The notes under the pieces: generated by a model
Databases searched by the model: none
What the model was told of the DNA's origin: nothing
What the model saw: the letters and a program-made list of their open reading frames with translations, nothing else
Translations under genes and position numbers: made by a program
From: Smithellaceae bacterium
GTDB taxonomy: Bacteria; Desulfobacterota; Syntrophia; Syntrophales; Smithellaceae
Direction of reading: 5' to 3'
DNA length: 64,000 nt
Assembly (NCBI GenBank): GCA_030690945.1
Contig: JAUYFM010000058.1
Span: 1-64,000 of the forward strand
Part shown: positions 59,630 to 61,841 of the stretch, one piece after another
How positions within the stretch are numbered: position 1 is the stretch's first letter
Layout: each line of letters begins with the position of its first letter

Positions 59630-59810
59630 GCCCAGATCACCAGTAATACAGAACATTGAGCTGAATGTCAGGGATAAACCTGTTGATGTATGCGTATATC
59701 AATCACGACATGCGCAGCCTTGTTATCTGTATAAATTTATTGACACTCCGATTTCTTCTCCATATACTCCGGCAACAAAATACAACCATTGTCCATAAAT
59801 GAGAGAAAAT

Positions 59811-60275
59811 ATGCCGCAAGTTTATCACTACGAAATAACCGTGCCGAAGGAAGCGGAAGATCAAAACGGGCATGTCAATAACGTGGAATATCTGCGCTGG
59901 ACGCAGGACGCCACGATGAAGCACTCCGAAATGACCGGCTGCACACAGGCGACCAACGTCGTCGGCGCGACCTGGGTGGTGCGAACACACAAAATCGAAT
60001 ACCTAAAACCCGCATTTGCCGGCGACAGGGTTGTTGTGAAGACTTGGGTCGCAAACTTCCGCCGTGTCCAGTCGCTACGCAAATACAGAATAATTCGTCC
60101 GTCGGATAAAGCCCTGTTGGCCGTGGGAGAGACGGACTGGGTTTTTGTGGATGTTCAAAAAGGTACGCTGCGCTCCATTCCCAAAGAAGTTAGGGCTACA
60201 TTTGAACTCCTACCGGAAGAAAAAGAAGCGGATATTTCAGCGAATGAGGAGACCCTTTGCTTCCTGCACACTTGA
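59811..60275 (+). CDS. 4HBT-family acyl-CoA thioesterase
   Basis: 154 residues from ATG 59811 (a GAGAG site lies 5 nt before; ATG 59799 is a possible earlier start). Hot-dog fold with the active-site region VPKEAEDQNGHVNNVEYLRW TQDA (~8, catalytic-type Asp/Asn in HVNN) and GAGWVVR-like ATWVVRTHKIEYLKPAFAGD (~52). Hydrolyses an acyl-CoA or acts like YbgC/4-hydroxybenzoyl-CoA thioesterase; substrate unknown. Its last ~55 codons are duplicated at 61185-61356. Its C-terminus diverges from that copy after EEKEADI. Confidence 0.88.
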   Translation: MPQVYHYEITVPKEAEDQNGHVNNVEYLRWTQDATMKHSEMTGCTQATNVVGATWVVRTHKIEYLKPAFAGDRVVVKTWVANFRRVQSLRKYRIIRPSDKALLAVGETDWVFVDVQKGTLRSIPKEVRATFELLPEEKEADISANEETLCFLHT

Positions 60276-60334
60276 CAAAACCGTTGATTATGGTTAAACA
60301 GGTCTTCGTCTGGTCTTATTTTAGGAGAGAGATT

Positions 60335-60574
60335 ATGGAAATGATCGGAACGTATGAAGCAAAAACCAACCTGGCCAAACTTCTGGAACGGGTCAATAAG
60401 GGAGAAACCATCGGCATAACAAAGCACGGCGTGCCTATAGCTATCCTGGCACCCCCCCCTCAGGCAAAGAAAACGAACCCCCGTCAGACGATCGCGGAAT
60501 TGCGCAGTTTCCGGGACGAAAACTTTCTTCAAGGCATTTCCCTGCGTAAAATGATTGAAGAAGGCAGGCGCTGA
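60335..60574 (+). CDS. Phd/YefM-type antitoxin (VapB partner)
   Basis: 79 residues, ATG 60335 after TAGGAGAGAGATT. N-terminal Phd/YefM DNA-binding module GTYEAKTNLAKLLERVNKGE TIGITKHGVPIAILAP and a C-terminal Arg-rich toxin-neutralising tail (SLRKMIEEGRR). 5 bp before the PIN toxin. A single family-consistent TA pair. Confidence 0.88.
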   Translation: MEMIGTYEAKTNLAKLLERVNKGETIGITKHGVPIAILAPPPQAKKTNPRQTIAELRSFRDENFLQGISLRKMIEEGRR

Positions 60575-60579
60575 ATGAA

Positions 60580-60999
60580 ATGAAAGAAGATTTTGTCATT
60601 GATAATTCCGTGGTCATGTCATGGTGCTTCAAAGATGAAACAAAAAAATACACGGACGCCATGCTGGACCGCCTGGAAAACGCCACAGCTTATGTGCCGA
60701 CTATCTGGCCGCTGGAAGTCGGCAACGTGCTGCTGGTGGCCGAACGAAAAAAAAGACTGAGCGAATCTGACAGCTTCCGCTTTATTGCTTTATTGAACGC
60801 ACTGCCTATTATTGTCGAGCAGGAACCACCGGAAAGAATGCTGAGCGAGATATTGAATCTTGCCCGCGAACACAAGCTGTCGAGCTATGACGCTTCCTAC
60901 CTGGACCTCGCCATCCGTAAAGGATTACCGTTTGCCTCAACGGATGACCATCTGATAAACGCTGCAAAACGTTGTGGTGTATCCATTTTAAAAGGCTGA
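60580..60999 (+). CDS. vapC: PIN-domain toxin (VapC-like ribonuclease)
   Basis: 139 residues. PIN acidic quartet visible: Asp in FVIDNSVVMSW (~8), Glu in WPLEVGNVLL (~47), Asp in HKLSSYDASYLDLAIRKGL (~100), Asp pair in FASTDDHLINAAKRCGV (~120). Metal-dependent ribonuclease toxin, neutralised by the upstream Phd-type protein. The pair sits between two partial copies of a thioesterase gene. Confidence 0.9.
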   Translation: MKEDFVIDNSVVMSWCFKDETKKYTDAMLDRLENATAYVPTIWPLEVGNVLLVAERKKRLSESDSFRFIALLNALPIIVEQEPPERMLSEILNLAREHKLSSYDASYLDLAIRKGLPFASTDDHLINAAKRCGVSILKG

Positions 61000-61184
61000 A
61001 TAACGGCAGCAAGGCCTGCAAGCCGACCTCCAAAATCCGGCGCTTTCTTTTTGTCAATTTTCGAATGGCTGTTTTGGAGATATTTTATTCACTCGACCGG
61101 GTTGATCGGTCTGAAGGTGAGCGAAACAAACTTTGAAATGATGTCCGCTCATGCTTTTTAGAAAAAAGAGGATTTTTCAAGGAC

Positions 61185-61356
61185 GACCAAGTACCGAATT
61201 CTTCGTCCGACAGATAGAACCCTGCTGGCCGAAGGCGAGACGGACTGGGTTTTTGTGGATGTTCAAAAAGGCACGCTGCGCTCCATTCCCAAAGAAGTTA
61301 GAGCTACATTTGAACTCCTGCCGGAAGAAAAAGAAGCGGATATTCTTGATCTCTAA
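61185..61356 (+). pseudogene. Thioesterase C-terminal fragment (partial duplicate)
   Basis: 57 codons in one frame (TKYRILRPTDRTLLAEGETD WVFVDVQKGTLRSIPKEV...ADILDL) nearly identical in its second half to residues ~93-145 of the thioesterase at 59811-60275. No start codon, ribosome site or N-terminal hot-dog half, so it cannot make an enzyme. It ends 21 bp before the peroxiredoxin gene. The direct repeats bracket the Phd/VapC pair. Confidence 0.85.
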
Positions 61357-61376
61357 TTTGAAAGGAGGTTCCCATC

Positions 61377-61841
61377 ATGTCAAGAATCGAACTCAACATC
61401 CAGGCGCCCAATTTCACCCTGAATGATTTTAACGGCAAGCGCACATCTCTTGCCGATTTTGCCGGACAAAAAAATGTGCTCGTGGTTTTCAATAGGGGAT
61501 TTTTCTGACCCTTCTGCCGAGCGCACATGGCGCAGTTGCGCCGGGATTACGATCAATTCGTAAAGTTAAATACGGAAATTATCGTTGCCGGGCCGGAGAA
61601 GGCCGAGGCATTCAGGGATTACTGGACAAAAGAAAACCTCCCGTTTGTCGGCCTGCCCGATCCCGAGCATCATGTGTTGAAGGTGTACGGCCAGGAAGTC
61701 AAGCTGTTCAAACTGGGCCGGCTACCCGCGCAGATGCTCATTGATAAATCCGGAAAAGTACGCTTCGTGCATTACGGCCATTCGATGTCGGATATTCCAC
61801 CGAATGAAGAGATTCTCAACCTGATTGAAACACAGCTATGA
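61377..61841 (+). CDS. Selenocysteine-containing peroxiredoxin / redoxin (in-frame TGA as Sec at residue 44)
   Basis: 154 residues read through TGA 61506-61508. A strong AAAGGAGG site 8 nt before ATG 61377 sets the start. The thioredoxin fold is seen on both sides of the TGA: MSRIELNIQAPNFTLNDFNG, LVVFNRGFF, then TGA, then PFCRAHMAQLRRDYDQF and IIVAGPEKAEAFRDYW. Peroxiredoxin relatives have Cys at this place (RGFFCPFCRAHMAQLRRDY), so the residue becomes Sec in a U-P-F-C motif, with resolving Cys47. A SECIS-like hairpin (61529-61542) follows. A simple nonsense mutation is the alternative, but a break at exactly this residue with a hairpin at the right distance argues for Sec. Selenoproteins are frequent in deltaproteobacteria. 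Needs SelA, SelB and SelC elsewhere. Confidence 0.8.
61529..61542 (+). other. Bacterial SECIS-type hairpin
   Basis: GGCGC, loop AGTT, GCGCC, within the coding region. The apical loop is 25 nt after the UGA codon (bacterial SECIS usually 16-37) and has G as its second base, as required for SelB binding. Stem is 5 bp, extendable by a T-G pair. Confidence 0.7.

Follow-up and report, generated by a model that had tools for sequence, protein, structure and literature searches.

The forward strand of the 64,000-nucleotide stretch of Smithellaceae DNA analysed here (hereafter, the window) carries at positions 61,377–61,841 a probable selenoprotein gene for a peroxiredoxin (Prx)-like redox protein of the UxxC type with the AhpC-TSA/Redoxin fold. 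A Shine-Dalgarno sequence, AGGAGG (61,363–61,368), lies 8 nt before the ATG; the preliminary description of the locus had noted a strong ribosome site there. The frame contains a single in-frame TGA, codon 44 (61,506–61,508), and is otherwise open. When the TGA is translated as selenocysteine (Sec), the product has 154 residues with the motif F-N-R-G-F-F-U44-P-F-C47 and scores 82.1 bits against AhpC-TSA (PF00578; cut-off 26) and 69 bits against Redoxin. Cys47 (TGC, 61,515–61,517) is presumed to be the resolving Cys of the UxxC motif, and Gly114-Arg-Leu-Pro117 is encoded at 61,716–61,727. A putative bacterial SECIS hairpin occupies 61,528–61,543, with a stem of 5–6 bp (61,528–61,533 paired with 61,538–61,543) and the loop AGUU (61,534–61,537).

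A standard list of open reading frames made without recoding calls only 61,527–61,841. This fragment alone still matches AhpC-TSA, but from profile position 45 onward only. It had been foreseen that a gene caller lacking Sec support would report just the piece starting at ATG 61,527, with loss of the N-terminal half. The truncation is indeed what standard annotation would produce; the part lost would be the N-terminal third, together with the catalytic Sec.

Upstream of the selenoprotein gene lies a thioesterase gene (59,799–60,275). A 157-bp direct repeat of 90% identity (60,080–60,236 and 61,188–61,344, thus spanning 60,080–61,344 of the window) flanks a Phd/YefM-PIN toxin-antitoxin pair (60,326–60,574 and 60,580–60,999). 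In the relatives L009 and L010 the thioesterase and selenoprotein genes form an intact pair, 21–22 nt apart, and the toxin-antitoxin pair has split this gene pair in the window. The neighbourhood is not conserved in general: a thioesterase was found in 5 of 40 upstream genes scanned, the window's included, and DUF4345 in 11 of 37 downstream ones. The gene neighbourhood was therefore rejected as a clue to function.

Reading of the TGA codon

Relatives of the gene were collected at 80 loci in public (GTDB) genomes, and 77 of them have TGA at codon 44. Among the other three, the contig of L045 begins after the codon, the decayed copy L084 reads TAA, and in L087 the codon is TGT, for Cys. The relatives belong to Thermodesulfobacteriota, Chloroflexota, Actinomycetota, and Bacillota; the carriers include Syntrophaceae/Smithella, Desulfobulbus alkaliphilus, Longilinea arvoryzae, Levilinea saccharolytica, Leptolinea, Coriobacteriia, and Bacillota. 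A search of the window's class found exactly one TGA in every full-length match of at least ~38% identity, decayed copies aside. For the class to which Longilinea belongs, 38 genomes gave matches, and 36 of them contain a copy with the TGA. The protein sequence is conserved across phyla both N- and C-terminal to the TGA, which bears out the earlier remark that conserved sequence continues in frame beyond this codon.

The gene is sometimes lost: L084, in genome G024, combines TAA at the Sec codon with frameshifts, and the copy in G032 is split. Such decayed copies elsewhere are what would speak for the window's TGA being the mark of a pseudogene or a sequencing error. Yet the same TGA occurs in independent assemblies and in at least four phyla. 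Three copies from independent assemblies (L008–L010), 93–95% identical, all carry it, and a sequencing error, which had been named as a way in which the proposal could fail, is thereby ruled out. Altogether, an explanation by decay or error appears exceedingly improbable.

Another reading takes the TGA as an ordinary stop that terminates a short peptide, a separate protein beginning at the in-frame ATG at 61,527. However, the 43 N-terminal residues and the six residues between the TGA and this ATG are kept as protein across phyla, the fragment from 61,527 would lack the first strands of the fold, and the ATG itself overlaps the conserved hairpin. Moreover, homologues have Cys in place of the TGA. 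We consider an ordinary stop very improbable.

The exchange of Sec for Cys had been proposed as a check on residue 44, and the alignment of relatives reveals both: besides the TGA forms, Cys occupies the position in L087, L171, L173, L174, and L175. L170 (Sec, UKQS) and L171 (Cys, CKQS) are a sister pair with 84% identity. This pair and the Cys forms L173–L175 come from genomes G165 and G237; G237 harbours several Cys paralogues beside a Sec copy.

The hairpin GGCGC-AGTT-GCGCC (61,529–61,542) was likewise singled out in the preliminary description as fitting the bacterial SECIS rules. These rules prescribe a loop of 3–9 nt, a stem of 4–16 bp, a G among the first two loop positions, and 16–37 nt between UGA and loop (PMC13188914). 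The window hairpin complies, with its AGUU loop, its stem of 5–6 bp, and a TGA-to-loop distance of 25 nt. When the local sequence was folded by itself, its stability did not exceed that of shuffled sequence (z = 0.01), so the support for the hairpin is comparative. An Rfam scan of the SECIS region gave no match, as is to be expected given how diverse these elements are in bacteria.

The comparative support comes from codon conservation, covariation, and RNAalifold. Most of the hairpin sequences are related, and with counts that accordingly represent non-independent events, the hairpin codons are nearly fixed among relatives (Ala GCG in 72 of 73, Gln CAG in 75 of 75, Leu TTG in 78 of 78), and compensatory double changes occur in two base pairs (GC to AU in four sequences, CG to UA in three). 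Elsewhere in the same genes the same codons make up 28% (GCG), 67% (CAG), and 19% (TTG) of the same residues. The hairpin positions pair in 96.8% of cells in 42 sequences, compared with 18–67% for slid controls. In L062, L075, and L076 the hairpin is kept as TGATGC-AGTT-GCATCA although the encoded residues differ, Met replacing Ala and His replacing Arg. These patterns indicate that the hairpin is conserved beyond the needs of the protein and is under selection. A UxxT variant, L162 (UPYTRKHM), retains the GGCGC-AGTT-GCGCC SECIS of the UxxC group.

The search for the Sec machinery, advised in the preliminary description, was successful on all counts. The genome contains selA, selB, and selD, as well as a tRNA-Sec (73.5 bits) for which ARAGORN gives the anticodon TCA. 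The selD gene of this genome (L097) itself holds an in-frame TGA (context GUACK). The Cys form L087 lies in a genome without a selA match. Among 25 genomes checked, a selA match is missing in five, of completeness not given, four of which hold the TGA form. Co-occurrence with selA turned out to be uninformative as a test and constitutes weak evidence, since selA is nearly universal in the examined groups.

Since TGA conservation, the SECIS hairpin, the Sec machinery, the Sec/Cys exchange, and the independent assemblies all agree, read-through of the TGA as Sec is very likely. We estimate at about 93% the probability that Sec is inserted at codon 44 and that the protein is of the UxxC redox class. 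SelB with Sec-tRNA would bind the AGUU-loop hairpin 25 nt past the UGA and thereby insert Sec at codon 44.

Fold, active site, and likely chemistry

An AlphaFold model based on a 27-row alignment (pLDDT 86.7) has a peroxiredoxin fold and matches the structures of AhpE and Bcp best (Z of 21 to Bcp4 and AhpE). Profiles aligned with 2ywn and 2cx3 put Sec44 in the column of the Thr/Ser of TxxC, Cys47 in that of the peroxidatic Cys, and Pro117 in that of the catalytic Arg; these Prx residues are named according to established knowledge of the family. The preliminary label of Sec at the peroxidatic position is therefore wrong. The ResA profile alignment places the CxxC at the columns of U44 and C47 and a Pro at that of Pro117. 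The fold is that of a peroxiredoxin, but the catalytic Arg is absent, and the motif NRGFFUPFC differs from PxxxT(S)xxC/U, whose last residue is the peroxidatic Cys or Sec. The CxxC and the Pro before a strand that mark ResA/TlpA proteins have their counterparts by sequence alignment. The active site resembles that of thioredoxin and ResA, set on a peroxiredoxin fold, and Sec44 stands where a thioredoxin-type CxxC has its attacking N-terminal Cys.

Position 47 is variable in the wider family, being Cys, Ala, Thr, or Ser. The motifs are UxxC, UxxT, UxxA, UxxS, CxxS, and CxxT, and Sec or Cys is constant at position 44 only. The UxxA sister clade (L133–L143, L163–L167, and L169, with the motif UPFA or UPYA) consists of relatives from the order and phylum of the window. 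Its hairpin after the TGA differs, being CATCTG-GGN-CAGATG in most members, and 16 of 18 UxxA proteins contain no Cys/Sec residue apart from this Sec. Because sister clades lack Cys47, an internal Se-S bond at +3 is not essential in the wider family; the essential chemistry is probably performed by residue 44 alone, the second Cys being optional. No UxxA entry was found in the 2026 selenoprotein table (PMC13188914). It is conceivable, if rather doubtful, that the wider family represents an uncatalogued selenoenzyme type with a Prx fold, a nucleophile at the thioredoxin position, and resolution by external thiols alone. The UxxA clade provides a natural test of the need for a second Cys.

A chemistry that turns on residue 44 with an optional Cys47 fits both a peroxidase and a reductase. 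As a true peroxidase, working like a 2-Cys or 1-Cys peroxiredoxin or a glutathione peroxidase, the enzyme would use Sec44 to reduce H2O2 or an organic peroxide, with formation of a selenenic acid that Cys47 or an external thiol resolves. The Prx fold, with its closest structural counterparts in AhpE and Bcp, is in keeping with this, and so are the UxxA, UxxT, and CxxS sister clades, in which the active site has a single chalcogen, that of the Sec or Cys, an arrangement that suits peroxide attack followed by external thiols. On the other hand, the peroxide-binding motif PxxxT(S)xxC is missing, and the catalytic Thr/Ser and Arg of peroxiredoxins are replaced by Sec44 and Pro117. Peroxidase activity of the Sec44 protein is thus possible, but we regard the true peroxidase as the less favoured alternative.

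We lean, with modest confidence, towards a reductase as the main activity. In these anaerobes the protein would most likely serve as a dithiol/selenothiol reductase, possibly also reducing peroxides. The protein is probably cytosolic, with the peroxiredoxin fold bearing the thioredoxin-type active site U44-P-F-C47. Sec44 would be the nucleophile, as the U/C conservation at this position suggests, its selenolate attacking a substrate disulfide or peroxide. Cys47 would then resolve Sec44 by closing an Se-S bond, and a thioredoxin-like reductant may reopen it.

Relation to known selenoproteins

In genome G072, probably that of Syntrophus aciditrophicus, there are two AhpC-TSA genes, both with a single TGA, and one of these genes is the relative L129 (59% identity). 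A literature search for the motif 'UPFC' gave no match. 'Prx-like' UxxC selenoproteins were reported by Zhang and Gladyshev in 2005 (PMC1088965). The same authors listed a 'Prx-like thiol:disulfide oxidoreductase' in Deltaproteobacteria, including S. aciditrophicus, in 2006 (PMC1794560), and the Prx-like UxxC class still stands in the 2026 selenoprotein table with the representative WP_010940744.1 (Table 1, PMC13188914). The window protein shares with this class the PF00578 domain, the UxxC motif, the bSECIS element, and the occurrence in Deltaproteobacteria. The claim of a new selenoprotein is consequently not supported: the protein appears to belong to the already catalogued Prx-like (UxxC) thiol:disulfide oxidoreductases, an assignment made by domain, motif, and catalogue descriptions, to a 'family' that is broad in these lists. 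The tight family around the window gene has TGA nearly everywhere, one SECIS shape, and carriers in culture, among them Longilinea arvoryzae, Levilinea saccharolytica, and Desulfobulbus alkaliphilus, and so offers a tractable case for the function of Prx-like Sec proteins.

By its description, the Redoxin family selenoprotein (PF08534, UxxC; HEU0032618.1; PMC13188914) is alike in the Redoxin domain and the UxxC motif. The best NCBIfam match is to SelL and the SelL-related redox protein NF040769. At 75.4 bits it lies below the curated cut-off of 120, so this model would not name the window protein, which has UxxC, not UxxU. With the peroxiredoxins (AhpE, Bcp/PrxQ, including the TxxU selenoprotein Prx) the protein has the overall fold in common, but it differs in having Sec at the Thr/Ser of TxxC and Pro instead of Arg. 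With the ResA/TlpA-type thiol-disulfide oxidoreductases it shares the arrangement at positions 44, 47, and 117; in contrast to them, it has no signal peptide visible by eye and has a Prx-like C-terminus, RFVHYGHSMxDIP.
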